Below are positions 2,585 through 32,221 of a DNA stretch of 62,421 nucleotides, one piece after another. The stretch comes from Gammaproteobacteria bacterium (lineage in GTDB: Bacteria > Pseudomonadota > Gammaproteobacteria > Chromatiales > Chromatiaceae), in NCBI GenBank assembly GCA_018812525.1, contig JAHJDE010000112.1:1-62421 (forward strand). The letters run 5' to 3'. Below the pieces are notes generated by a model. That model worked only from the letters and a program-made list of their open reading frames with translations, was not told where the DNA came from and searched no databases. Numbering within the stretch: the first letter of the stretch is position 1; every line of letters starts with the position of its first letter. A program made the position numbers and the translations under genes.

Positions 2585-3525
<941 letters not shown>

Positions 3526-4093
3526 AGATCCGTTTCGCGCAAAGACGCAAAGGCGCGTGGTCCGGATCATCCCGGGGTCATGCGGTATATCCCTATACCG
3601 CACCCTTCGGGCGCGTTTCCGTTCACCCCCCCTCCCTCTGGGAGGGGGTTGGGGGGAGGGCGGTTGTGGATAAGGCTCTGGATTTATTAGGCCACCCCCT
3701 CCCCAACCCCCCCCCAGAGGGGGAGGGGGCTGAACGGTTACTCGGGCGCAAGGCGTGCAAATCGGCTGTCCTGCCGACTTGTCCGCTTTGCTCCATCCGG
3801 GCTACTGCTATTCAGCCCCCCCTCCCTCCGGGAGGGGGTTGGGGGGAGGGTCGGCGTAGACCAAGCACCCATGCCCGAATCGACCTCTCACCCCCTCCCC
3901 AACCCTCCCCCAGCAAAGGAGGGTGTCGTAAAACTGAAAATGTAGGGTGGATAAGCGAAGCGCATCCACCATTCGGCGCGGTTTCGGTGGATGCGCTTCG
4001 CTTATCCACCCTACGCTCACCACGTTTTGCGACACCCTCCAAAGGGGGAGGGGGCAATTTCCGAATTGAGCTGAATTCGCCAAGGGCTTTAGA
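3526..4093. repeat. 568-bp gene-free interval made of three inverted-repeat blocks
   Basis: No credible gene. Two blocks (about 3627-3730 and 3815-3912) are inverted repeats of C/G-runs (CCCTCCCT...GGGAGGGGGTTGGGG and its complement) separated by unique spacers; the same G-rich unit recurs near 22439, 49696 and 60013. The third block (about 3918-4047) is a compound element: GTGTCGTAAAACTGAAAATG, then two facing copies of GGTGGATAAGCG/CGCATCCACC hairpins, then GCGACACCC. This third block is the same REP unit that surrounds the RAYT transposase at 13.9 kb. Long reading frames here are low-complexity artefacts of the G/C runs. Confidence 0.85.
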
Positions 4094-4456
4094 ATGAACC
4101 GGACCGGGCTTTTCGGCGGGGTCGCCCTCGCCAGCTACTTTCTGTTGCTGGGCCTGCTCTTTCTCTGGGTGGTCGCCTTCACGCCGCCCCTGCACTGGCC
4201 CCGTCCGATCCTGCTGCTGATCGTGGTCCTACCCCTGGCCCTGCCCGTGCGCGGGGTGCTCCACGACAGGCCGCGCGCCTGGTTCGCCGTCATCTTTCTC
4301 AGTCTGGTCTATGCCCTGCACGGGGCGGCGGAGGTCTATGTGGCCCCCCGCGCCTCCGTCCTGCCCTATGCCGAGCTGGGCCTGGCGCTGACGCTCTTTT
4401 TCAGTGCCCTGCTCCATTTGCGCGGGTCGGACTCTGGGGAGAACCCCGTCCCGTGA
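4094..4456 (+). CDS. DUF2069 inner-membrane protein
   Basis: 120 aa protein with about four hydrophobic helices (residues roughly 8-30, 35-53, 58-77 and 85-103) and short loops, matching the small DUF2069 membrane family often found beside hda in gammaproteobacteria. The last four bases overlap the GTG start of hda (GTGA), so the pair is probably one transcript. No biochemical role is established for the family; linkage to Hda suggests only that the gene order is conserved. Confidence 0.8.
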   Translation: MNRTGLFGGVALASYFLLLGLLFLWVVAFTPPLHWPRPILLLIVVLPLALPVRGVLHDRPRAWFAVIFLSLVYALHGAAEVYVAPRASVLPYAELGLALTLFFSALLHLRGSDSGENPVP

Positions 4457-5160
4457 GCCGACAGTTGGCCTTGCCCCTCCGGTTGATCGGCGATATCGGC
4501 TTCGAGGGTTTCCTCGCTGGCGAGAACGCCGAGGCCGTCGCGGTCCTCAAGGCCGCTGCCCAGGGAGAAGGAGAACACTTCCTCTCCCTCTGGGGCGGAA
4601 CCGGCTGCGGCAAGAGCCACCTGTTGCAGGCCGCCTGCCGGCTGGCCGACCGCTCAGATCATAGCGCCTTCTACCTGAGCCTGGCCGAAGCACCCCAGTC
4701 CGATCCCGTACTCCTTCAGGGGCTGGAGGGGATGGACCTGGTGGCCATCGACGATATAGACCGAATTGCGGGTGATCCGGCCTGGGAAGAGGCCCTTTAC
4801 CGGCTCTACAACGCCATTCGCCAGGCGGGCGGGCGCCTGCTCGTCGCCTTCCGTCCACCCCTGGCGGAACTGCCGATCGGCCTTCCCGACCTCAAGTCTC
4901 GCCTGGCCTGGGGGCCGGCCTATCGGCTGCTGCCCCTGGGCGACGCCGACAAGGGGCAAGTCCTGCAACGGGCCGCGGTCCAGCGGGGGCTGTCGCTACC
5001 CGATGAGACCCTCAATTATCTGATGCACCATTACAGCCGCGACCTGCCGGAACTCCTGCGGCTGCTCGACCGGCTCGACCAGGCATCCCTGGAGGCCCAG
5101 CGGCGCCTCACCCTGCCCTTCGTGCGGCAGTGGCTGCTCACCCCCGGCGCCGACAAATAG
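4453..5160 (+). CDS. hda: DnaA regulatory inactivator Hda
   Basis: 235 aa AAA+ protein that works with the DNA-loaded beta clamp to stimulate ATP hydrolysis by DnaA after replication starts. The clamp-binding motif QLALPL is at residues 4-9, as in E. coli Hda. Walker A GGTGCGKSH lies at about 48-56, and Walker B-like LVAIDDIDRI at about 96-105. The C-terminal half has the DnaA-like lid (LLRLLDRLDQASLEAQRRLT). The GTG start at 4453 is chosen because it puts the clamp motif at the extreme N-terminus and overlaps the upstream gene by four bases. Confidence 0.93.
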   Translation: MSRQLALPLRLIGDIGFEGFLAGENAEAVAVLKAAAQGEGEHFLSLWGGTGCGKSHLLQAACRLADRSDHSAFYLSLAEAPQSDPVLLQGLEGMDLVAIDDIDRIAGDPAWEEALYRLYNAIRQAGGRLLVAFRPPLAELPIGLPDLKSRLAWGPAYRLLPLGDADKGQVLQRAAVQRGLSLPDETLNYLMHHYSRDLPELLRLLDRLDQASLEAQRRLTLPFVRQWLLTPGADK

Positions 5161-5175
5161 GCACTGTCAAAAAAG

Positions 5176-5209
5176 TTGCACTAGCCCCCCCCCCCCCTCG
5201 CACTACAAT
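5176..5209 (+). promoter_or_regulatory. Promoter-like hexamers separated by a 13-C homopolymer
   Basis: TTGCAC at 5176-5181 and TACAAT at 5204-5209 resemble sigma70 -35 and -10 boxes. They are 22 bp apart, and that spacer contains a run of 13 C (5185-5197). Spacing would reach the optimal 17 bp if five C were lost. The region lies 64-97 bp upstream of the CheB-CheR fusion start. Homopolymers between -35 and -10 are a known means of phase variation, for example in Neisseria. The -35 match is only moderate, and a homopolymer of this length may also be miscounted in sequencing. Confidence 0.4.
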
Positions 5210-5272
5210 TGAAAATAGTCAAGGGGATGCAGCCCTGAACGCAGGCCCCACAATGAGGAAGGTAGAGACCCC

Positions 5273-8200
5273 ATGACCAAGCGAAGGCCCCCCGCCGGCA
5301 AGGCAACACCCCCAGCCGAAGATCTGCCCGCTGTCCCGGTGGAGAAGACCGGCCTTCCCGCCGCCAATCCCGCCCAGGGCTTTCCGATCATCGGCATCGG
5401 CGCCTCTGCCGGGGGCCTGGCCGCCTTCGAGGCGTTTTTTTCGGCCCTCCCCGCCGAGGCCGGCAACGGCATGGCCTTCGTGCTGGTGCAACACCTTGCC
5501 CCGGACCACAAGAGCCTGCTCGCCGACCTGGTCCGGCGTTATACCCGCATGGAGGTCCGGGAGGTCGAGGACGGCATGGCAGTTCAGTCCGGCCGTGCCT
5601 ACATCATCCCCCCCAACCGCGACATGGCCTTCATCGACGGCAGCCTGCAACTGCTGGAGCCTGCGGCACCGCGCGGCCTGCGGCTGCCGATCGACTTCTT
5701 CTTCCGCTCCCTGGCCCAGGACATGCGAGAGCGCGCCATCTGCATCGTCCTCTCCGGCACCGGCAGCGACGGCACCCTGGGCATCCGGGCGGTCAAGGGC
5801 GAGGGCGGCATGGTCATGGCGCAGGACCCCGACTCCACCGAATTCGACGGCATGCCGCGCAGCGCCATCGCCACCGGTCTGGTGGACTATGTCCTGCCGC
5901 CGGCCGCGATGCCCGAGCAACTTATCGCCTACACCCGCCACGCCTTCGGCCTGGCGCGGCTACCCGCCGTGGACAAAATCCCCAATGCCGAGGACTGCCT
6001 GAAAAAGATCTGTGTCCTGCTGCGCGACCGCACGGGCCACGACTTCTCCCAATACAAGCAGAACACCCTGGTGCGCCGGGTTCAGCGGCGCATGGCCCTG
6101 CACCAGATCGACCGCCCCGCCGACTACCTGCGTTACGCCCAGCAAAGCCCCAAGGAACTCGATGCCCTGTTCCGGGACCTCCTGATCGGCGTCACCAATT
6201 TCTTTCGCGACCCCGAGGCCTTCGAGGCACTGGAGCAGGGCGTCATCCCCCGTCTGTTCGCCGACAAGCCCGCCGGCGCCCCGGTGCGGGTCTGGGTGTG
6301 CGGCTGCTCCACCGGCGAGGAGGCCTATTCCATCGCCATCCTGCTCCAGGAGCATCTGGATAGCCTGCGGCTGACCTTCAGGGTGCAGATATTTGCCACC
6401 GACATCGACCCGCAGGCCATCGAACGGGCGCGCAGCGGCATCTACCCCGCCAGCATCGCCGCCGATATCTCACCCGAGCGGCTGGCGCGATTCTTCGTGC
6501 AAAACCCGGACGACGGCAGCTACCGCATCCAGAAAGCGATCCGCGACCTCCTGATATTCTCCGAGCAGGATGTCATCAAGGACCCGCCCTTCTCCAAGCT
6601 GGACCTGATCAGTTGCCGCAACCTGCTGATCTACCTGAACGGGGACCTGCAAAAGCGCCTCATCCCCCTGTTCCACTACGCCCTGAACCCCGGCGGGATG
6701 CTGTTTCTGGGGACCTCCGAGACCATTGGCGAGTTCCTGACCCTCTTCTCCCCCCTGGACCGCAAGTGGAAGCTCTACCGGCGCCAGATGGATTCGCTCT
6801 TGGTCCCCAGCCAGGTAATGAGCCAATACCTTCCCTTCCGTCACAATCCTGCTCCCGCCGGCCAGGCGGCCAAGGACGGCAGCCGTTTTAATCCCCGCGA
6901 GCTGACCGAGCGGGCATTGCTGGGGCACTATGCCCAGGCCGGCATCCTCATCAACGGACAGGGCGACATCCTTTACATCCACGGCCGCACCGGCCAATAC
7001 CTGGAGCCCGCCGTCGGCGAAGCAGGCATGAACATCCTCGCCATGGCGCGGGAGGGACTGCGGCGCGAACTGTCCAGCACCCTGCACCGGGCGGTCAGCC
7101 AGAGGACAGTGGTCCGCTGTGCCGGGCTGCGGGTCCGCACCAACGGCTGCCACATCGGCGCCGACCTCTGCCTGCTGCCGGTCATGGCCGATCCGGAGAG
7201 CGGCACGGCAGCGGACCTCTACCTCGCCATCCTGGAAGAACGGCCCGAAGAACCGCCGCCGCCCGCCCCGGCGACGGACGAAACGGCCTCCGAAGGGGAC
7301 CGCCGCATCGCCGCCCTGGAACAGGAGTTACGGTCCAAGGAGGAGTACCTCCAATCCACCCTCGAAGAGATGGAGACCGCCAACGAGGAACTCAAATCCA
7401 CCAACGAGGAGATGCAGTCGGTCAACGAAGAGCTGCAATCCACCAACGAGGAACTGGAGACCTCCAAGGAGGAGCTGCAATCGGTCAACGAGGAGCTGGC
7501 CACGGTCAATGCCGAACTCCAGGTCAAGCTGGCCGACCTCACCCGCGCCAACAACGACATGAACAACCTGCTGGCCGGCACCGGCGTCGCCAGCCTGTTC
7601 GTGGACCTGCAACTGCGCATCACCCGCTTCACCCCCGCCACCACCGAGATCATCAACCTGATCCCCGCCGACGTGGGCCGCCCGGTGGCCCACATCGTCT
7701 CCAACCTGGAGGGTTACGACCGGTTGATCGAGGACCTGAAGTCGGTGCTGGACAACCTGATCCCGCTGGAGGCCGAGGTGCGCACCAAACAGGGCGCCTG
7801 GTTCCTGATGCGCATCCGCCCCTACCGCACCCTGGAGAATGTCATCGAGGGGGCGGTCATCACCTTCGTGGAGATCAGCGAACGCAAGCGGCTGAACGAG
7901 GCGTTGCAGCGCGAGAGCGCACTCAATCAGCACTATCTCGATACCGTGCAGACCATCATGGTCGCCCTCGGCGCCGATGGCCGCGTCACCCTGATCAACC
8001 GCCGGGGCTGCGAGCTGCTCGGCTACCGGGTGGAGGAGTTGCGGGGGCGTGACTGGTTCAGGACCTGCCTGCCCCAGCCGGAGGGCATGCTGAGGATCTA
8101 TCCCTTCTTCCTCCGGCTCATGGCGGGGGAACTGGAGGGGGTCGAGTATGCGGAAAACCCGGTCCTGTGCCGCGACGGCAGCCAGCGTCTGATCGCCTGG

Positions 8201-8843: not shown

Positions 8844-11094
8844 ATGGAAGGGGGGAGAAAAGAGATGGGCAGCGAGGACATCAAACGGGAATCGAGGCAG
8901 CGGCTGCGCGAAGAGGCGGAACGGCTGGTCCGAACAGGGCAGGCCGGAACCGGCGAGACCGGGCACCTGCTCCACGAGTTGAGTGTCCATCAGATCGAAC
9001 TGGAGATGCAGAACGAGGAGCTGCGCCGGACCCAGCAGGAGCTGGACGCCTCCCGCGAACGTTACCGGGAGCTGTTCGAGCTGGCCCCCGTGGGCTATCT
9101 GGTCATCGAAAACGGCCTGGTCCGGGAGGCCAACCTCACCGCAGCCGAGCTGTTGCGCCTGCCGAGGGGGGAGTTGGTGGAGCGGTCTCTGTCCCGCTTC
9201 ATCATCCCCGCCTATCAGGACCCCTACTACCTGGGCCTCAAACGGCTCTTCGATAGGGGACAGCCCCAGACCCTCGAACTGGAGCTGAAACGGGCCGACG
9301 GGACCCTCTTCTGGGCACGGCTGGAGCTGACCCCGGTCCAGGGTTCGCCCAGTTGCCGCATCATCCTCAGCGACATCAGCGAACAGCGGCTCGCCGAGGA
9401 ACAGAAACGTATTGCCGCCGTGGCCTTCGATGCCCGCGACGGCATGCTGGTGACCGACGCCAAAGGCGTCATCCTGCGGGTCAACGGCGCCTTCACCCAG
9501 GTCACCGGCTACAGCCCAGAGGAGGCCGTGGGCAAGACCCCCGCCCTGCTGCACTCGGGGCGCCACGATGCCGGCTTCTACCGCGCCATGTGGGAGGCGA
9601 TCCGGCGCGAGGACCATTGGGAGGGGCAGGTCTGGAACCGGCGCAAGGACGGCGAGATCTACCTGGAATGGCTCGCCATCTCCGCCGTGCGCGATCCCCA
9701 GGGAACCATCACCCACTATGTGGGGCACTTCTCCGACATCAGCGAACCCCGCCTGGCGGAGCGTAAGCTGCATGAGCTGGCCTACTACGATCCGCTCACC
9801 GGCCTGCCCAACCGCCGCCTGCTGCTCGACCGGCTGCAACAGGCAGCCGCCGCTTCCGAGCGCAACGACCAATACGGCGCCCTGCTGCTGTTAGACCTGG
9901 ATCGCTTCAAGAACCTCAACGACAGCCTGGGCCACCCGGCGGGCGACCGCTTGCTGGCCGGCACGGCGCAACGCCTGACCGCCAGCCTGCGCCAGTCCGA
10001 TACCGCCGCCCGGCTCGGCGGCGACGAGTTCGTGGTGCTGCTGGAGGACCTTGGCCCGGAAGAGATCGCCGCCGCGACCGCCGCCGAGTCCATCGCCGAG
10101 AAGCTGCAAGCCGCCCTCGAACCCCCTTTTCAGCTCGACGACGGAAACCATCACCTCAGCGCTTCTATCGGCATCACCCTCTTTTGCAGCCGGGGCCAGG
10201 TGGTGGAGACCCTGCTCCAGCAGGCCGAGCTGGCCCTCTATCAGGCCAAGAAGGACGGCAGCAGCAACATCCGCTTTTTCTGCGCCTCCATGCAAGAGGT
10301 CATCGACGCGCGCACCGCCCTGGAGGAGGGGCTGCGCCACGCCCTGGCGAAAGACGAACTACGGCTCTTCTACCAGCCCCAGGTGGACTACAACGGCCGC
10401 CCGACCGGCGCCGAGGCCCTGCTGCGCTGGCTGCCGGCGGGCAAACCCATGGTCTCTCCCGCCCTCTTTATCCCCGCCGCAGAGGAGAGCGGGCTCATCC
10501 TCCCCATCGGCCGCTGGGTGCTGGAGACCGCCTGCCGCCAGCTTGCCCTCTGGGGCAGGGACCCGGCCACCCGCGACCTGCAACTGGCGGTGAACATCAG
10601 CGCCATCCAGTTTCACCAACCCGGGTTTATCGATCAGGTGCGCGCCGCGCTCGACAGCAGCGGGGCCGATCCGTCGCGGCTCAAGCTGGAACTGACCGAG
10701 AGCCTGCTGGTGAGGGAGCTGAGCAACGTCATCTTCACCATGCGGGAACTCAAGTCGATCGGTGTCGGCTTCTCCCTGGACGACTTCGGCACCGGTTATT
10801 CCTCGCTCGCCTATCTCAAGCGTCTGCCCCTGGATCAGCTCAAGATCGACCAGTCCTTCGTGCACGGTATCCCCGCCGACCCGGACGACTGCGCCATCGC
10901 CGCCGCCATCATCGCCCTCGGCCACAGCCTGCGCCTGGATGTCATCGCCGAGGGGGTGGAGACCGAGGCCCAGCGCGACTTCCTGGCCGGGGAGGGTTGT
11001 ACCTCCTACCAGGGTTATCTGTTCGCCCGGCCGGGACCGCCCGAGGCCATCGAGTCGATGGCCCATGCCATCCCTTCCCCTGAGGAACCAGCCC

Positions 11095-11105: not shown

Positions 11106-13698
<2,593 letters not shown>

Positions 13699-13726
13699 AT
13701 CAGGCCCCATAGAGATGTAGGCCTTT

Positions 13727-13814
13727 TGGTGGATGCGCTATCGCTTATCCACCCTACATAGGGGGGTGTCGTAAAACTGAAAATGTAGGGTGGATAAGCG
13801 GAGCGCATCCACCA
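13727..13814. repeat. REP/BIME unit, left flank of RAYT
   Basis: An 88-bp unit with two hairpins based on GGTGGATGCG...CGCTTATCCACC, separated by GTGTCGTAAAACTGAAAATG. It is identical, base for base, to 14432-14519 on the other side of the transposase gene and in the same orientation. A further half-unit (GATAAGCGATAGCGCATCC) is at about 13871-13893. Related material occurs at 3918-4047. Confidence 0.9.
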
Positions 13815-13909
13815 GGGCTATTCCACCTCCATGCCGGCGATATTCCCTGGCTGCTGCTTACCCCAGTCAGGATAAGCGATAGCGCATCCACCAAAAGGCC
13901 TTCCGCGTC

Positions 13910-14428
13910 ATGAGTGAATATCGTCGAGCACGGATACCCGGAGGGACCTTTTTCTTTACCCTCGTCACCCATGATCGCATTCCCTACTTCGACTCCGGAG
14001 CACGGGTTGCTGTCCTGCGGGAAGCCTTCCGCCAAGTGATGTCATCACGACCCTTCCGCATTGAGGCAATTGTGGTACTGCCGGATCATCTCCACTGCCT
14101 TTGGAAGCTGCCCGTGGGGGATGGGGATTATTCCAGCCGTTGGCGGGAGATCAAAAAGGCCGCTTCGCGGAGAATCGCAACTGACAGCAACCAGCGCAAG
14201 GAGCGCCCTGTCTGGCAGCGGCGTTTTTGGGAACACGCCATTCAAGACGAGTCGGATTGGCGTAGCCATGTGGATTACATCCATTACAACCCGGTCAGGC
14301 ACGGGCTGGTTCAAGCCCCTGGAGATTGGCCTTGGTCATCCTTTGGAATGGCGGTGCGGCGTGGGTGGTATGAGCCTGGCTGGGGTAAGCAGCATCCAGG
14401 GAATATCGCCGGCATGGAGGTGGAATAG
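13910..14428 (+). CDS. REP-associated tyrosine transposase (RAYT)
   Basis: 172 aa Y1/HUH single-strand transposase related to IS200/IS605 TnpA. The metal-binding HUH motif appears in VVLPDHLHCLWKLP (about 63-76), and the catalytic tyrosine in HVDYIHYNPVRHG (about 121-133). The gene is intact and begins RRARIPGGTFFFTLVTHDR, a typical RAYT start. RAYTs are single-copy housekeeping-like transposases believed to move REP hairpins, and here REP units flank the gene on both sides. Fifty-six bp at 13817-13872 are an inverted copy of the gene's own 3' end (14377-14432) with two mismatches. This gene lacks the C-terminal helix-turn-helix of the broken RAYT at the right end of the window, so it belongs to a different subgroup. 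Confidence 0.93.
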   Translation: MSEYRRARIPGGTFFFTLVTHDRIPYFDSGARVAVLREAFRQVMSSRPFRIEAIVVLPDHLHCLWKLPVGDGDYSSRWREIKKAASRRIATDSNQRKERPVWQRRFWEHAIQDESDWRSHVDYIHYNPVRHGLVQAPGDWPWSSFGMAVRRGWYEPGWGKQHPGNIAGMEVE

Positions 14429-14431
14429 CCT

Positions 14432-14519
14432 TGGTGGATGCGCTATCGCTTATCCACCCTACATAGGGGGGTGTCGTAAAACTGAAAATGTAGGGTGGAT
14501 AAGCGGAGCGCATCCACCA
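14432..14519. repeat. REP/BIME unit, right flank of RAYT
   Basis: Identical 88-bp direct repeat of 13727-13814, starting 4 bp after the transposase stop codon. Each hairpin has the arm GGTGGATGCGC pairing with GCGCATCCACC-type sequence. Recombination between the two direct copies would remove the transposase gene. Confidence 0.9.
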
Positions 14520-14649
14520 AAAATCTGAAAGAGCAGAACGGAATCAGGCCCCGTAATTCGGCGGCTTTGGAGACTGTGCACCAGTTCGCCCAATCTCCCC
14601 CCTTCCTCGGCTATCATTCGCGGGTTGGAATCGTTTCGGGAGGCCCCTC

Positions 14650-26449: not shown

Positions 26450-26902
26450 TCAACATGCCTCGTAGGGGTCCGGGAGGCCGAGACGGGCAAGTATCGCCAC
26501 CTCAAGGGCCTCCATTGCCTCGGCCGAGGCATCATTTTGATGGTCATGGCCCAACAGATGCAAGACACCATGCACCACCAGGTGGGTCCAATGGGCCTCC
26601 GGGGCCTTGCCCTGCTCCAGGGCCTCGCGCTCCACCACCGGGGCGCAGATTACCAGATCGCCCAGGTAATCACTGGGAAAACCGGGCGGGGCCTCGAAGA
26701 GAAAGGAGAGGACATTGGTCGGCATCTCCTTGCCGCGATACTGGTGATTCAGCTCCCGGCCCTCCCCCTCATCGACGATGCGAATGACCAGCCCGGCGGA
26801 CCCAAGTTCGGCCACCGGGGTTGCCATGACCCATGTCTTCAGTTGCCCGTCCGCCGGCTGGCCAGGGCATTCCGAGACGCGCTGTATCTCGACTTTGACC
26901 AT
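26450..26902 (-). CDS. ybeY: Endoribonuclease YbeY, 16S rRNA maturation factor
   Basis: 150 aa single-domain zinc-dependent RNase needed for 16S rRNA 3' processing and ribosome quality control. The metal-binding motif HGVLHLLGHDH (H-x3-H-x5-H) is at about 113-123, and the conserved KEMPTNVLSFLFE at about 57-69. The ATG at 26902 overlaps the phoH stop by one base (TGATG); a GTG one codon earlier is the alternative. Confidence 0.95.
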   Translation of the reverse strand: MVKVEIQRVSECPGQPADGQLKTWVMATPVAELGSAGLVIRIVDEGEGRELNHQYRGKEMPTNVLSFLFEAPPGFPSDYLGDLVICAPVVEREALEQGKAPEAHWTHLVVHGVLHLLGHDHQNDASAEAMEALEVAILARLGLPDPYEAC

Positions 26903-27885
26903 CACTTATCGCCCCCCTGCGTCTTATCAAAGGCCTCGTAGGCATTGACCACCCGCTGCACCAGGGGGTGGCGCACCACATCGCGGGCATTGAAGAAGGT
27001 GAAGGCGATCCCCTCCACCTCACGCAGGACATCGATGGCCTGGCGCAGGCCCGATTGCTGTCCGCGCGGCAGATCGATCTGGGTCACGTCGCCGGTAATG
27101 ACGGCGGTGGCGCCGAACCCAAGCCGGGTGAGAAACATCTTCATCTGTTCCGGCGTGGTGTTCTGGGCCTCGTCCAGGATAATGAAGGACTCGTTCAGGG
27201 TGCGCCCGCGCATATAGGCCAGGGGCGCAACCTCGATCACATTACGCTCGATGAGCTTGGCCACCCGTTCGAAGCCCAGCATCTCGTAGAGGGCGTCGTA
27301 GAGCGGGCGCAGATAGGGATCGATCTTCTGGGTCAGGTCGCCGGGCAGGAAACCGAGCCGCTCGCCCGCCTCCACCGCCGGCCGCACCAGGATGATGCGC
27401 CGCACCAGGTCCCGCTCCAGGGCATCCACCGCGCAGGCCACCGCCAGATAGGTCTTGCCGGTGCCCGCAGGGCCGACGCCGAAGTTGATGTCATGGGTCA
27501 GGATGCGGTGTAGATACTCGCGCTGGTTGGGACCGCGTGGCTTAATCAGGCCCCGGCGGGTCTTGATGCTGACATCCTGAGCCTCGGGCGCAGCCTCCCC
27601 CTGGGCAGCGTCCAGGCCTGAATCCTGTAGAAACAGGTGGACCCGCGCCGGGGTCAGCACCTCCGTGTCCGTCTCGCAGTACAGCTCGCTCAATACCCGC
27701 TCCCCGGCGCGCACGCCGTCCTCGTCGCCGATCAGTTGAAAGCGCCCACCGCGATTGTTGATCTCGATCCCCAACCGCCGCTCGACCAGGCGCAGATGCT
27801 CGTCCAGCCGGCCGCAGAGATTCGCCAGCCGGGCGTTGTCGAAGGGGTCCAGTTCCAGTTCAAGGCTGATGGGTTGGTCGGTCAT
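26902..27885 (-). CDS. ybeZ: PhoH-family ATPase (YbeZ type)
   Basis: 327 aa cytoplasmic P-loop ATPase normally encoded beside ybeY. Walker A GPAGTGKTYLAV is at about 140-151 and the Walker B-like SFIILDEAQNTTPEQMKMFL at about 234-253. The N-terminal part includes an RNA-binding-type segment (residues about 15-80). In most gammaproteobacteria it directly follows miaB; here about 2.8 kb of insert separates the two. The first 150 bp of the gene are duplicated as a decayed fragment at 29957-30110. Confidence 0.94.
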   Translation of the reverse strand: MTDQPISLELELDPFDNARLANLCGRLDEHLRLVERRLGIEINNRGGRFQLIGDEDGVRAGERVLSELYCETDTEVLTPARVHLFLQDSGLDAAQGEAAPEAQDVSIKTRRGLIKPRGPNQREYLHRILTHDINFGVGPAGTGKTYLAVACAVDALERDLVRRIILVRPAVEAGERLGFLPGDLTQKIDPYLRPLYDALYEMLGFERVAKLIERNVIEVAPLAYMRGRTLNESFIILDEAQNTTPEQMKMFLTRLGFGATAVITGDVTQIDLPRGQQSGLRQAIDVLREVEGIAFTFFNARDVVRHPLVQRVVNAYEAFDKTQGGDK

Positions 27886-27892
27886 AGTTTGT

Positions 27893-28201
27893 TTATTCGC
27901 ATGGCGAGGGAGATCGATCCGGAGGATATCTCCTCGCCGTATGGATGAGATTCAAAAGGGAAACCGACGCCTCGCCGATCTCCACCACCGCAATGTAGGG
28001 CAAGCGGTGGATGACATATTCCTTGGTGCCGGAGACCCGCCCTGGCCGGCAACGGTCCGGAAACTGGGCCAAGGCGCCGACATGGGCCATGATCCTGGCG
28101 TAGACCGCTTCGGCGACCCGCGACTCCCCTTGCTCCAGGTAGTAAGCCAGGATGTTTTCCAGGTCCCGCTCCGCCTCATTCGTCCATCTGAGTTCGAACA
28201 T
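27893..28201 (-). CDS. RelE/ParE-family toxin
   Basis: 102 aa basic protein of the RelE/ParE fold. The N-terminus ELRWTNEAERDLENILAYY (about 3-21) and the central GTKEYVIHRLPYIAVVEI (about 58-75) are typical, ending in LNLIHTARRYP. It could be a gyrase-type (ParE) or ribosome-dependent (RelE) toxin; sequence alone does not decide. It follows its antitoxin by 9 bp and ends 7 bp before phoH, so toxin transcription could run into phoH-ybeY-corC-lnt. Confidence 0.85.
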   Translation of the reverse strand: MFELRWTNEAERDLENILAYYLEQGESRVAEAVYARIMAHVGALAQFPDRCRPGRVSGTKEYVIHRLPYIAVVEIGEASVSLLNLIHTARRYPPDRSPSPCE

Positions 28202-28210
28202 GGGCGATGG

Positions 28211-28519
28211 TCAGGGGGCATCCGGTTTCAGTTGCAGCTTTTGCCGCAGGCGCCCCATGACCTCCTCGTGGGAAGAGGTGGTTGTCTTTCCGCTATGAAA
28301 GGCATCGAGGGTGCGCGTCACCTTGGCCTGAAACCAGGCGTCGTAGCCCTCATCCTTTTCCATGAACATCTCCGGGATGAGGGTATCGGCGGCATCCTCA
28401 ATGGAAATCATGATGCCAACAGGACGATTGTTCTTGGTCACAAGCACGGGTTCACGCTGCATCGTGTCCAAGAACTCGCCGAAATGGATCTTTGCGTCAC
28501 GAGCCGTCATCGTTTTCAT
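28211..28519 (-). CDS. Phd/YefM-family antitoxin
   Basis: 102 aa partner of the toxin at 27893. The N-terminal DNA-binding half MTARDAKIHFGEFLDTMQRE (about 4-23) and the strand VLVTKNNRPVGIMISIED (about 25-42) are characteristic of Phd/YefM antitoxins; the charged C-terminal half should wrap the toxin. It has its own promoter-like boxes just upstream, fitting autoregulation by the antitoxin. Confidence 0.87.
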   Translation of the reverse strand: MKTMTARDAKIHFGEFLDTMQREPVLVTKNNRPVGIMISIEDAADTLIPEMFMEKDEGYDAWFQAKVTRTLDAFHSGKTTTSSHEEVMGRLRQKLQLKPDAP

Positions 28520-28552
28520 GGGCGCGCCTTGAATGGAGGGATTGATGTGCTC

Positions 28553-28580
28553 ATTGTAGTCACAATAATCACTCTCACAA
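28553..28580 (-). promoter_or_regulatory. Candidate sigma70 promoter of the Phd/ParE module
   Basis: Read on the minus strand: TTGTGA (28580-28575), 16-bp spacer, TACAAT (28558-28553), followed 34 bp later by the antitoxin ATG. The -10 matches consensus at five of six positions and the -35 at four of six. Confidence 0.5.
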
Positions 28581-28619
28581 GCCCTAACCCCTTTGCGGCT
28601 TGGCGCCTTTGCGCGAGGT

Positions 28620-28715
28620 TCATGACTGGGATTCCGGCTCGTCCACCAACTCTCCCCGCAGAGAGCTGGGCAGGGCCTCCAGAATGCGCACCGCGACGAA
28701 CTAGCCGATCAGTGA
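28620..28715 (-). pseudogene. Remnant of a second miaB 3' end
   Basis: Translated on the minus strand it reads SLIG, then a stop in place of Gln, then FVAVRILEALPSSLRGELV, ending at a TGA. This lines up with the C-terminus of the intact MiaB ([20 protein letters not shown]...) but differs at about one residue in three. It is therefore a diverged allele, not a fresh copy. It is cut at 28716, where an 80-bp repeat begins. It sits upstream of the Phd/ParE module exactly as the intact miaB end sits beside the DUF433/DUF5615 module. Confidence 0.8.
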
Positions 28716-28795
28716 TTAAAGGGACAAGCTCGAATAATTTCTCGGTCGTATTTCCGAAGCGGTTAATCCGCATTTAATTCGACCCAGGCACCTGC
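28716..28795. repeat. 80-bp direct repeat, left copy, flanking the nuclease-like gene
   Basis: Starts TTAAAGGGACAAGCTCGAAT and ends in ATTCGACCC-AGGCACCTGC. It matches 29871-29950 in the same orientation over its whole length with scattered differences. The unit is an imperfect palindrome (GGTCGAAT-type end facing ATTCGACCC), so it is a REP-like hairpin. Confidence 0.8.
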
Positions 28796-28803
28796 CGCTC
28801 TCT

Positions 28804-29847
28804 TCATCCTTCTGATTCCCGCTCAGAAGTCTCTATCAAGACAACGGATACTCCGCTTTCCGGCTCCTGAAAGTCACAGTTCCGGTCACGATCCTCTGGA
28901 GGAGCGTCATTGTTCCTTCCATAGATGGCGCGTGCGCCATCTGGGCCTACGATGTCACTGACCGTCGAACAGGAAAGCCGCGACGTCGCATGGGCCACAA
29001 CCGTTCCGTCAAGCATCGCAACTGTGTCGCCCACTGAACGTGGGTGTGGAGGTCGGCCTGAATTCTTTCTTCTGAAAGACTTCTTCACCCCGGTTTCCAG
29101 TAGGTCCCAGACTACTTGTGACCAATCCTGTTTCTTTGCCGACGAAGATTTGCCTTCAAACGGGCGCCCTGTGCGGAAGATGAAGAGGTTGAACAGTTCA
29201 GCAGCCAGATGACTATGATCCCGCAGTGACTCATCTGGCATACAACAGCCCACTGGGTATGTTCCTGGAAGTCCCAACAAGCCACTCATTGGTTCACTTG
29301 GCGGCCTGTCGTCGATCAGGAGGTATTGTGCGCCTGGATGCGGTGTCTTTGGGGTCACTGCACGTTTCTGACCGTTGAGAAATGACGATCTCTTGTACTC
29401 GAAGTCCGGCCAATCCCTGTAGAGCCGTAGTTGGTCTGTCTCGCCAGTAGGGATGCGATACGGTTGCTGAGCAGATGCCTTTGCCTGAAACAGGAGGGCG
29501 TTTCGCCTTGGGGCTCCAGTTCTCGGTGTGTGGACATAAGCGAAAAGGATGTCACCGAGTTCGCACGATCTCGGCGGGCGAGAGTTGAAAGTGACTTCAG
29601 GTTTCTGGTGGCAGAAGACAGCGAGTACGGAGACCGAGATGCGCCGAGGCGAAAGCACTGAGTTGAGGGCAGAATGAATGAGTGGAGTGCTTTCAGTCAC
29701 AAGTCCTGCCACGAAATCCGGTTCCTGCGGTGTCGTATTCAGACGTCTGCACCGCCGCCAAGTATCCAGTATTCCGTAGATGGTGGCGATGTGGAAAGAC
29801 TGAACCAATTCCTCACGATCATGCCAGAGTGCTGCAGTGATAGACAT
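28804..29847 (-). CDS. Uncharacterised protein with PD-(D/E)XK-like residues
   Basis: 347 aa soluble protein not recognised as any named family. Residues 96-123 contain ELGDILFAY (Asp99), then NALLFQAK (Gln121, Lys123), preceded by EPDF near 42-45. This spacing resembles the D...QxK active site of Mrr-type restriction endonuclease-fold proteins, with Gln in place of Glu. The ATG at 29847 follows AGAGGGA by 6-8 nt; a longer frame upstream runs into the flanking repeat and is rejected. Base composition is visibly less GC-rich than in the neighbours, and 80-bp direct repeats bracket the gene, both suggesting acquisition. It sits between two toxin-antitoxin modules, so a defence or DNA-processing role is possible but unproven. 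Confidence 0.7.
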   Translation of the reverse strand: MSITAALWHDREELVQSFHIATIYGILDTWRRCRRLNTTPQEPDFVAGLVTESTPLIHSALNSVLSPRRISVSVLAVFCHQKPEVTFNSRPPRSCELGDILFAYVHTPRTGAPRRNALLFQAKASAQQPYRIPTGETDQLRLYRDWPDFEYKRSSFLNGQKRAVTPKTPHPGAQYLLIDDRPPSEPMSGLLGLPGTYPVGCCMPDESLRDHSHLAAELFNLFIFRTGRPFEGKSSSAKKQDWSQVVWDLLETGVKKSFRRKNSGRPPHPRSVGDTVAMLDGTVVAHATSRLSCSTVSDIVGPDGARAIYGRNNDAPPEDRDRNCDFQEPESGVSVVLIETSERESEG

Positions 29848-29870
29848 TGTTGCTTCCCTCTGTTTTGGAG

Positions 29871-29950
29871 TTAAAGGGCCAGGGTCGAATGAATTCGCGG
29901 TCGTATTTCTGCGGCGGCTAATTCGCATTTGATTCGACCCTGTCCCCTGC
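29871..29950. repeat. 80-bp direct repeat, right copy, flanking the nuclease-like gene
   Basis: Begins TTAAAGGGCCAGGGTCGAAT and closes with GATTCGACCC-TGTCCCCTGC. It pairs with 28716-28795 as a direct repeat about 1.15 kb away. Its palindromic ends (GGGTCGAAT / ATTCGACCC) are better preserved than in the left copy. Confidence 0.8.
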
Positions 29951-29956
29951 TTTTCT

Positions 29957-30110
29957 GATCAGTTGAAAACGACCGCCCCGGTTGTTGATCTCGATCCCCA
30001 ACCGCCGTTCGACCAGACGCAGAGCTCGTCCAGCCGGCCGCACAAATTCGCCAGACGGGCGTTGTCGAAGGGGTCCAGTTCAGCCTAAGGCTGATGGGTT
30101 GGTCGGTCAT
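29957..30110 (-). pseudogene. Decayed duplicate of the phoH 5' end
   Basis: About 154 bp closely match the first codons of the intact phoH (27730-27885), including the start MTDQPISL. At least two single-base deletions break the frame after a few residues (GCAGAGCTCG here versus GCAGATGCTCG in the gene; TTCAGCCTAAGG versus TTCCAGTTCAAGG). It stands downstream of the DUF433/DUF5615 module relative to miaB, so miaB end - module - phoH start is repeated twice in this locus. Confidence 0.85.
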
Positions 30111-30202
30111 GGCTTGGATTTTCTTTCACGGCAGGTGCAAAAGTCTAACAGCCTTTTCCCGCAAGGCATGTGTCCAAGCGGGCGACGTGCTAGAGTTGAA
30201 TC

Positions 30203-30421
30203 ATGATTGATTGGTCCACCTGTCCCGCCGTCGAACGTGATCCCCAGCGCCTTAGTGGCGCCTGGGTGTTTCGTGGCACTCGTGTGCCCGTAACCGCCCT
30301 GTTCGAAAACCTCGAAGACGGGGCTCAGCTCTCGGAGTTCGTGGCCTGGTTTCCCGGTGTCACCCTCGAACAGGCCCGTACCGTGCTCGAACACGCCGCC
30401 CGCACGCTGGAAGCGGCTTGA
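30203..30421 (+). CDS. DUF433-family antitoxin
   Basis: 72 aa protein of the DUF433 winged-helix-like family, predicted antitoxin. The pattern is typical: NP/DP-x-R...SGAWVFRGTRVPVTALFENL (about 18-37), then a helix with FVAWFPGVTLEQARTVLEHA. The toxin gene starts directly after its stop codon (TGAGTG), so the two are coupled. It runs opposite to miaB and phoH, unlike the Phd/ParE module. Confidence 0.85.
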   Translation: MIDWSTCPAVERDPQRLSGAWVFRGTRVPVTALFENLEDGAQLSEFVAWFPGVTLEQARTVLEHAARTLEAA

Positions 30422-30751
30422 GTGGTCGTGCTTTTCGACCAAGGCACGCCGGTGCCGCTCCGTCATTTTCTGCCAGGACACCAAGTTTCAACAGCCTATG
30501 AGTTGGGCTGGAGCGGGCTCACCAACGGCGACCTGCTGCAACAGGCCGAGTCCCATGGGTTCGAGCTGCTGGTCACCACCGACCGGAATCTTCGCTACCA
30601 GCAAACCCTCTCCTCTCGAAGAATCGCCATCGTCGTTTTGGGATGCACCAGTTGGCCACGCATCTCCAGGGTCGTCTCCCAGGTTGTGGCGGCCGTCGAA
30701 GGCAGCAAGACCAACAGCTACACAGAGGTTCCCATCCCTTATGGCGACTGA
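30422..30751 (+). CDS. DUF5615 PIN-like toxin
   Basis: 109 aa PIN-like predicted ribonuclease paired with DUF433. Acidic residues in LFDQGTP (Asp6) and LLVTTDRNL (Asp53) match the family's expected metal site. It starts with GTG immediately after the antitoxin stop. Its 3' end overlaps the miaB 3' end by 13 bp on the opposite strand, so the module is fused tightly to the miaB terminus. Confidence 0.82.
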
Positions 30752-32115
30752 TCCGAATCGCATTCGGCGTTGACCAACTCCCCCCGCAGGGAATTGGGCA
30801 GGGCATCGGTGATGCGCACATCGACGAACTGGCCAATCAGCGAGGCGTTCCCGCCCTGAGCGAAGCCGAAGGGGCCATCGAAGTTGACCACCCGGTTGTT
30901 CTCGGTGCGGCCGGAGAGCTGATTCGAATCCCTGCGGGCGAAGCGGTCCACCAGCACCCGTTGCACCGTCCCCACCATCTGGCGGCTGATGCGCTGGGCG
31001 TTGCCGTTGATGGCCTGTTGCAGGCGTTGCAACCGTTGCTGCTTGGCCTCCAGGGGCACGTCGTCGGGATATTCGGCGGCCGGGGTGCCGGGGCGGCGGC
31101 TGTAGATGAAACTGAAGGAGTGATCGAAGCCGATCTCCTCGATCAGTTGCATCGTGTAACCGAAGTCCTGCTCCGTCTCGCCGGGGAAGCCGACGATGAA
31201 ATCGGAGGATAGGCTGATGTCGGGCCGGATCTCCCGCAGGCGGCGGATCTTGGCCTTGTAGTCGTAAGCGCTGTGGCCGCGCTTCATCTGCATCAATATC
31301 CGGTCGGAACCGCTCTGCACCGGCAGATGGAGATGGCTGACCAGCTCCGGCACCTCCCGGTAGACCTCGATCAGGGCATCGGTGAACTCCAGCGGGTGGG
31401 AGGTGGTGAAGCGGACGCGGCCGATGCCCTCGATGGCCGCCAGGTAGCGGATCAGGCTGGCCAGATCGGCGATGCCGCCATCATGGGTAACGCCCCGATA
31501 GGCGTTGACGTTCTGCCCCAGCAGATTGACCTCCCGCACCCCCTGCCCCGCCAGGGACGCCACCTCGGCGATCACGTCGTCGAAGGGGCGGCTGATCTCC
31601 TCACCGCGGGTGAAGGGCACCACGCAGTAGGTGCAATACTTCGAACAACCCTCCATCACCGAGACGAAGGCAGTCGGCCCCTCGGCACGGGGCTCGGGCA
31701 GGACATCGAACTTCTCGATCTCGGGGAAGGAGACATCCACCACCGGCCGGCGATCGGCCCGCGCCTGCTCGATCATCTGGGGCAGACGATGCAGGGTCTG
31801 GGGACCAAAGACCAGATCGACGAAGGGGGCGCGCTCCAGGATCAGCCCGCCTTCCTGGCTAGCGACACAGCCGCCGACGCCGATGATCAGACGGGGATTG
31901 CGTTTCTTCCAGGGCCGCCAACGGCCCAGTTGGGAAAAGACCTTTTCCTGCGCCCTCTCCCGCACCGAGCAGGTGTTCAGCAGCAGGACCTCCGCCTCCT
32001 CCGCGTTCTCCGTCGGCTCCAGCCCGTGAGACTCCCTGAGCAGATCCAGCATCTTGGCCGAATCGTACTCGTTCATCTGACAACCGAAGGTCTTGATGTA
32101 CAGCTTGGGGGGCAT
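30739..32115 (-). CDS. miaB: tRNA-2-methylthio-N6-dimethylallyladenosine synthase
   Basis: 458 aa radical-SAM methylthiotransferase modifying A37 of tRNAs. The N-terminal cluster-binding cysteines are in [13 protein letters not shown] and [15 protein letters not shown]. The radical-SAM motif is [12 protein letters not shown] (C-x3-C-x2-C, about 157-168), and the C-terminal TRAM domain spans about 380-445. The ATG at 32115 ([14 protein letters not shown]) matches E. coli MiaB. A more upstream in-frame ATG lies within a REP hairpin and is rejected. The usual downstream neighbour phoH is displaced by the inserted modules. Its last residues (ECDSDQSP) are probably altered by the insertion. Confidence 0.95.
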
Positions 32116-32164
32116 TTGGATGGATAGTGCAGGAAATTGAGGAGTGGATTCTACATCAAAGGCC

Positions 32165-32221
32165 GTAGGAGCGCTTTTCAAGCGCGATCTTCTCCCAATC
32201 GCGCCTGCAAGGCGCTCCTAC
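32165..32221. repeat. REP-type hairpin (GTAGGAGCGC family), copy 2
   Basis: Arms 32165-32188 and 32198-32221 (GTAGGAGCGC...GCGCTCCTAC) are complementary apart from three positions in the middle. It lies in the 140-bp divergent gap between miaB and rsmA, close to where both promoters must be. Related to 186-246. Confidence 0.8.

Follow-up and report, generated by a model that had tools for sequence, protein, structure and literature searches.

A candidate family of stand-alone PD-(D/E)XK-type nucleases, found in a Chromatiaceae genome as a one-gene cassette between palindromic repeats

Introduction

How does a single gene that looks like one for a DNA-cutting enzyme, from an apparently unnamed family, come to lie between two palindromic direct repeats in a gammaproteobacterial genome, and what is it for? 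The gene lies in the window analysed here, by which we mean the whole stretch of 62,421 nucleotides of contig JAHJDE010000112.1 (Chromatiaceae, assembly GCA_018812525.1). An earlier note on this DNA had described it as an acquired, possibly defence-related orphan with a nuclease-like site. Below we follow the gene through its relatives, its conserved residues, the insert that holds it, the repeats that border it and its genomic company. The most likely answer is that the gene represents a new family of nucleases, of PD-(D/E)XK type and acting on their own, and that in this genome it forms a one-gene cassette bordered by palindromes of a transposase type.

Results

A protein without a recognised family

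The gene under study is the following.

28804-29847, minus strand: putative PD-(D/E)XK-type nuclease gene, ATG start, 347 aa, with conserved residues E42, H80, E96, D99, Q121, K123 and Q139

Its GC content is 0.54 against 0.62 for the window, in line with the lower value given earlier. The product (P0001) had no Pfam family at E ≤ 1, Mrr_cat (PF04471) included, no NCBIfam, PHROG or PDB-sequence match, and 0 families in PADLOC-DB 2.0.0 at E ≤ 1, a scan of the window protein only. None of the seven relatives scanned against Pfam matched, ten relatives scanned against NCBIfam gave two matches far below cut-off, both to unrelated families, and a PHROG scan of the window protein and part of the relatives returned nothing. 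These searches likewise showed no profile similarity to any curated PD-(D/E)XK member family (Pfam with P0001 and 7 relatives, NCBIfam with P0001 and 10). A profile search of PDB sequences listed three chemokine entries (E 0.11), which we dismissed as chance. The protein thus matches no recognised family, as the earlier note had it, and the same holds for the relatives scanned. Its claim that no partner gene is adjacent also stands: reading the neighbouring ORFs, with the four toxin-antitoxin ORFs scanned as well, we found no methylase, helicase or second nuclease among them.

Relatives are rare and scattered

Thirteen relatives of P0001 were found, 11 of them intact or nearly so. P0001 itself retrieved three loci from genome contigs (L004 from Chlorobiaceae, 80% identical; L005 from Nitrospirae, 62%; and L006, a Brocadiaceae fragment), two from plasmids (L007 from Paraburkholderia, 22%; and L008 from Thioclava, a broken copy with an internal stop) and, from 92 related genomes, the window genome alone. 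With the L005 protein as query, 7 of 398 genomes in the window's phylum matched, the window genome counted, and seven genomes from this phylum hold family members at 24-40% identity. Searches with alignment A2, for which all counts are lower bounds, gave at least 1 of 289 genomes in the class of G308 (G308 itself), at least 2 of 148 in the phylum to which the L005 genome belongs (that genome being one of the two) and, for the class of the window, at least 2 of 274 (G980, which holds locus L036, and the window genome). The second match in L005's phylum was weak, lay in a 62-aa open frame and was excluded from the family count.

One member is borne by a phage. A motif pattern run on viral contigs led to L040, 19% identical, which an HMM built without it confirmed at E 6.7e-15; the contig is that of a tailed phage, and the family gene sits between head-protease-like and head-morphogenesis genes. 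Of nine viral loci that the last motif pattern caught, L040 is the one with a family gene. On viral contigs one other motif pattern, a repeat pattern and the P0001, L019 and L016 proteins gave no relative, and the L040 protein as query matched its own contig alone. Phage records had no match for three family proteins (P0001 included), E. coli genomes none for the L040 gene, the only query used there, and plasmid searches with other family proteins returned the two known records or nothing. The L040 contig also carries, at coordinates 11855-12778 and 8965-9891, a BstA homologue and the nuclease-like family member, about 2 kb apart.

The family is therefore rare and scattered, and the best explanation is an unnamed family that moves horizontally. 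This patchy spread, together with the gene's location inside an insert (below), bears out the earlier view of an acquired gene.

Conserved residues point to a nuclease-like site

To PD-(D/E)XK enzymes belongs a signature of a glutamate in a helix, ExxD in a strand and QAK in the next strand. In alignment A4, which has 12 rows with the window included and the fragment L006 and the broken L008 omitted, H80, P83, E96, D99, Q121, K123, Q139, L142, F149 and Y175 are invariant in 12/12, and for D99 and QxK this invariance extends to 19% identity. E42 is kept in 11/11 alignable rows, the listed ORF of L036 beginning downstream of it. The family thus has an acidic strand residue followed by (D/E/Q)xK in D99, Q121 and K123, on strands that are a low-confidence prediction, and an acidic residue of the N-terminal core helix in E42. 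The earlier note had placed D99 and Q121-A-K123 within the 347-aa ORF exactly where we find them and had let its reading hang on the conservation of the D and the K, which all 12 rows retain. Between the window gene and L004, dN is 0.119 and dS 1.04, the latter near saturation, which argues that the protein is maintained by purifying selection.

AlphaFold2 models computed from 4 and then 5 sequences had pLDDT values of 35 and 36. Both low-confidence models agree on a helix within residues 42-68 and on two strands, at about 97-107 and 114-121; a further strand, at 73-81, appears in the second model alone. This series would correspond to the order of the PD-(D/E)XK core, an agreement that is no proof at this confidence. 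Foldseek returned nothing at E ≤ 0.001; its list consisted mostly of aminopeptidase-fold proteins, with E values all above 0.1 from a poor model, and we deemed it meaningless. Of the nuclease-like site proposed earlier, the conserved D99 and QxK thus stand, the nuclease core being a low-confidence prediction.

If the protein cuts DNA, metal binding and cleavage would fall to E42 on the N-terminal helix, E96 and D99 on a strand and Q121-x-K123 on the strand after it, with H80, P83 and Q139 as additional, family-specific residues. Alternatively, the E/ExxD/QxK residues may be structural or serve a different hydrolase, so that the protein would not be a DNA nuclease. Such a reading would suit the lack of fold evidence, the aminopeptidase-fold proteins listed for the poor model and the fact that H80 and P83, of a kind atypical of PD-(D/E)XK sites, are as invariant as D99 and K123. 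However, the residue spacing and strand order match those generally known from PD-(D/E)XK nucleases, and restriction-modification or other defence genes lie in several neighbourhoods (below). We regard the non-nuclease reading as quite improbable and a nuclease, judged from sequence, as the probable identity of the protein.

At L005 a 282-aa protein with a D and a QAK is encoded at 127-975, upstream of the family gene; as a candidate homologue of the family it was rejected, since hhalign gave a probability of 2.7% and no homology is detectable.

The gene lies in an insert between miaB and phoH

The surroundings of the gene comprise the following features, of which the names miaB and phoH-like are our own assignments from the translations.

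26902-27885, minus strand: phoH-like gene, left flank of the insert
27893-28519, minus strand: ParE toxin and Phd/YefM antitoxin pair, which the sister genome has between miaB and phoH
28640-28715, minus strand: copy of the miaB 3' end, a remnant of 76 nt, 79% identical to 30768-30843
29957-30112, minus strand: copy of the phoH 5' start, truncated and with indels, 156 nt, 91% identical over 155 nt
30203-30751, plus strand: DUF433 and DUF5615-like pair, a second toxin-antitoxin-like module, inside the insert
30739-32181, minus strand: miaB, right flank of the insert

In the sister genome G001, of the same genus, miaB, ParE/Phd and phoH stand in a row and the insert is absent. G001 aligns to 26502-28584 and to 30780-32116, which leaves about 2.2 kb (28585-30779) as inserted in the window. 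In the seven other family members compared (L043-L049), miaB and phoH align, the sequence between them has a short match or none, and neither toxin-antitoxin module is matched. By these comparisons, three things came in with the insert: the nuclease cassette, the pair of DUF433 and DUF5615-like genes, and the pieces of host genes. Because the ParE/Phd pair is present in the insert-free state, it is no natural partner of the nuclease, and a pairing of the two is not supported. The gene's position between two toxin-antitoxin modules was borne out for ParE/PhdYefM and for DUF433 (30203-30421), but the DUF5615-like partner (30422-30751) falls below the Pfam cut-off, with 21 against 23.8 bits.

The insert may have arisen through a tandem duplication or through the integration of DNA from a relative. 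We also considered a circular, Campbell-type integration as the source of the miaB and phoH copies; the comparison of the miaB tails with G001 (0.72 for the fragment, 0.84 for the full gene) was not decisive. Two further observations concern miaB itself: its 3' part has a short in-frame insertion, at about 30846-30877, that is absent in the same-genus relative, and at the start of its ORF (32165-32221) there is an inverted repeat, REP-like of the GTAG type, whose 24-nt arms start with GTAGGAGCG.

Two palindromic direct repeats enclose the gene

The cassette is bordered by the following repeats, their hairpin z-scores being relative to shuffled sequence.

28716-28806, no strand assigned: palindromic direct repeat 1, on the 3' side of the gene, hairpin z -1.27, no better than chance
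29871-29961, no strand assigned: palindromic direct repeat 2, on the 5' side of the gene, hairpin z -4.15

Both are 91 nt long, in direct orientation, 78% identical and spaced by 1155; blastn extends over 80 nt at 81%, in agreement with the flanking direct repeats reported earlier. By the 80-nt extent they lie about 8 nt past the stop codon and about 23 nt ahead of the start codon, and by the 91-nt extent repeat 1 overlaps the stop codon. The 3.5-Mb genome holds no further copy at E ≤ 0.001, an exact pattern of the inner palindrome, which catches the second copy only, found no extra copy in it, and blastn of the repeats against plasmids gave no match.

Canonical REPs carry a GTAG or CGTC tag at the palindrome, as outlined in PMC8266576 and PMC3733652. 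Neither repeat contains such a tag or its complement, two copies in 3.5 Mb fall short of the copy number of canonical REPs, and the cassette has no transposase inside it, tnpA-REP (PF01797) included. Because of the missing tag and the few copies, the repeats are not REPs in the strict sense. What remains of the earlier label "REP-like" is the palindromic direct repeats themselves and a motif at their ends that, in three related genomes, lies next to Y1 transposases (below). An identity as attC sites was dropped by eye.

A distant relative is enclosed in the same way

At L016, in genome G142, the gene for a protein 40% identical to P0001 lies between the palindromes AATCTGGGG...CCCCAGATT, whose sequence is unlike that of the window's. 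They are 1146 nt apart and 24 and 16 nt from the ORF, and a third, weaker copy (z -0.72) is at 9437-9496. Of the 5 exact palindromes of this type in the G142 genome, 2 flank the family gene. At L005, a three-gene unit is followed immediately by a tandem pair of 50-nt copies that contain ATGGGGTCAAGTCTTG, the opposite side being the contig end; behind these repeats a start codon reads MARPLRIEGPT and then a stop, which we take to resemble the start of Y1 transposases.

Repeats of at least 30 nt on both sides of the gene were absent from the ten other loci tested (L004, which is 80% identical, L005, readable on one side, L007, L017, L018, L019, L020, L021, L036 and L040), and the 139-nt tandem repeat of L036 is on one side of the gene only. 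Palindromes thus occur on both sides in 2 of the 12 full-length loci, the window included. The window gene and its similarly placed distant relative suggest a small mobile package that may perhaps aid virus resistance.

The repeat ends resemble sequences beside Y1 transposase genes

The window holds one Y1 transposase unit, which served for comparison.

13726-14521, plus strand: Y1 transposase unit, PF01797 match at 13955-14236, the window's only one

It is bounded by imperfect palindromic direct repeats of about 90 nt (13726-13815 and 14430-14521) that are nearly identical to each other and unrelated in sequence to the cassette repeats. It therefore has the architecture of the cassette with a transposase as cargo, and is a REPtron-like unit.

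An outer motif, GGGNCAGNSTCGAWTNAATT, was built from the window repeat and locus L059 of G001. Allowing one mismatch, it occurs at 43 places in 14/92 genomes, the window genome and G001 included; G029 alone accounts for 18 places, and a reversed control pattern occurs at 2. It is found at the ends of a Y1 transposase gene at L059, together with a full palindrome of about 74 nt beside a Y1 transposase gene in G026 (L134), and near a Y1 transposase gene in G029 (L122). Most of the 16 motif stretches inspected are without a Y1 transposase gene, and no cassette-type repeat was seen beside the window genome's seven Y1 transposase matches. When both repeats were aligned locally with 15 Y1 loci (30 comparisons), L059 was not singled out; two comparisons passed p ≤ 0.05, those of repeat 2 with the G001 loci L051 (p 0.05) and L061 (p below 0.01). 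This result speaks against a movement of the cassette via its palindromes, to which we give somewhat less than an even chance.

In G029, the repeat class lies beside DUF4351 or DUF2887 genes at 10 of 18 sites compared with 1 of 20 evenly spaced control windows, and 8 of the 18 sites have no such gene within about 2 kb. Once the 8 sites from the three clusters that had suggested the test are removed, the count is 2 of 10 windows against 1 of 20 (p=0.25). The link is thus largely post hoc and serves as a lead. Repeat ends of the GGGCCAGGCTCGAATTAATT type at L121, L122 and L123 of this genome stand beside DUF4351, DUF2887 and Y1 transposase genes, in duplicated blocks present in several copies.

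The palindromes might instead be miniature elements that landed by chance on both sides of a real nuclease gene, the gene itself having arrived by ordinary recombination with a relative's miaB-phoH region. The copies of miaB and phoH show that recombination took place, repeats on both sides are confined to 2 of the 12 full-length loci, and the 8 G029 sites distant from DUF4351/DUF2887 genes fit such elements as well. On the other hand, the only two copies in the window genome both hug the ORF, 2 of the 5 exact palindromes in G142 hug the homologous ORF, and the Nitrospirae operon at L005 is bordered by repeats of similar style on its readable side. We judge a chance placement rather unlikely.

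Defence genes near family members

Scanned with PADLOC, 124 ORFs at 14 family loci matched 230 models at E ≤ 1e-5 and 114 ORFs at 13 control loci, with coordinates fixed beforehand, matched 16, the number of models being inflated by redundancy. Twenty of the 124 family-locus ORFs, chosen by hand, were also scanned singly, while the controls were read from the pooled scan. At E 2.4e-20 or better, at least 8 of the 14 family loci have a match (L006, L007, L017, L018, L020, L036, L037 and L040) compared with at most 5 of the 13 controls (at most 5 proteins), a difference for which the one-sided Fisher p is 0.28. The neighbours include a type I restriction-modification operon (L036), a type II methyltransferase (L037), NsnB with GmrSD_N (L006), GajB (L007), RhuM (L018), DUF4365 (L020), a PbeC/DndD-like protein (L017) and BstA (L040). 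No defence genes were found at the window, L005/L038, L008, L016 or L021, the last three partly scanned singly. The association with defence is suggestive. The earlier "possibly defence-related" thus finds company in these loci, but the excess over the controls is not significant, and we consider a defence role of the protein about as probable as its opposite.

In some loci the gene could be part of a larger system. The clearest case is L036, where it directly follows hsdM, hsdS, DUF3800, hsdR, HD and DUF429 on the same strand. At L019 it directly precedes, on the same strand, a gene for a 1481-aa protein with a GSGKT motif (3171-7613) that has no PADLOC or Pfam match, and at L005 it is the middle gene of a closely spaced set of three. 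L019 also has, at a distance of about 3 kb, a patatin-like gene, which PADLOC does not match. From such arrangements the protein could be an effector or accessory subunit of multi-gene defence systems, with the window copy an orphan whose coding sequence has been kept. However, the neighbours vary between loci, and the copies in the window, at L016 and in the phage are apparently alone; a subunit is thus an unlikely reading, and the stand-alone nuclease is the one we prefer.

Discussion

Our results suggest how the lone gene may have reached its place. In the window and in G142 an imperfect palindrome, present in two copies, encloses the gene closely on both sides, which we read as a one-gene cassette. 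Because the outer sequence of the window palindrome is like that at some Y1 (RAYT-type) transposase genes, the cassette would probably be non-autonomous and mobilised in trans. Together with the pieces of miaB and phoH, it would then have been captured by recombination between miaB and phoH, and its role would most likely be defence by cutting foreign DNA. As a whole, this reading of a nuclease of PD-(D/E)XK type that acts alone, sits in a non-autonomous cassette bounded by palindromes and probably serves defence has in our estimate an even chance of being right. The wider generalisation is doubtful: it would make palindromes of the Y1 (RAYT) transposase class the borders of cassettes that carry single nuclease genes as non-autonomous cargo between genomes, the present family being one such cargo and the DUF4351/DUF2887 genes of one relative another.

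With its fixed, catalytic-looking residues, the purifying selection on it and a phage-borne member, the family may reasonably be put forward as a new defence protein encoded by one gene. According to PMC8266576, transposases associated with REPs are widespread and probably domesticated, and the way in which REPs disseminate is still open. A palindrome-bounded unit with a different enzyme as cargo would allow a direct test of gene movement by these transposases. If they do move genes, one-gene defence systems would have a route by which to spread on a small scale: palindromes and a trans-acting transposase would play for nucleases the part that attC sites and integrases play for integron cassettes. 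Among the literature matches listed, no title or opening of an abstract describes a nuclease cassette between RAYT-type palindromes.

The family protein shares with the PD-(D/E)XK superfamily (for example Mrr-type enzymes and QxK variants) the order and spacing of the helix acidic residue, the strand acidic residue and QxK, as well as the order of its low-confidence secondary structure, whereas its extra invariant H80, P83 and Q139 and the absence of a profile match of P0001 in Pfam, NCBIfam, PADLOC or PDB sequences set it apart; its fold is a low-confidence prediction. Rpn, DUF4351 and DUF2887 proteins are PD-(D/E)XK-related, and G029 has the same repeat class beside DUF4351 and DUF2887 genes, but P0001 matches none of these Pfam models and the G029 association is the post hoc one given above. 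Rpn proteins themselves are described as anti-phage toxin-antitoxin proteins (PMC10327210).

Collectively, the arrangement is analogous to two kinds of mobile unit. In IS200/IS605-type elements and the miniature elements derived from them, the ends are palindromic, and single-strand transposition in trans may be possible for the cassette too; unlike them, the window cassette has no Y1 transposase inside and a whole palindrome on each side. In REPtrons, a TnpA-REP/RAYT gene is flanked by REPs, as summarised in PMC8266576. In the window cassette, likewise, imperfect palindromes in direct orientation stand on both sides of a coding sequence, and a Y1 unit of this build lies in the same window; unlike a REPtron, the cassette carries a nuclease-like gene rather than a transposase as its cargo, between two copies of a palindrome that is free of the GTAG/CGTC tag.
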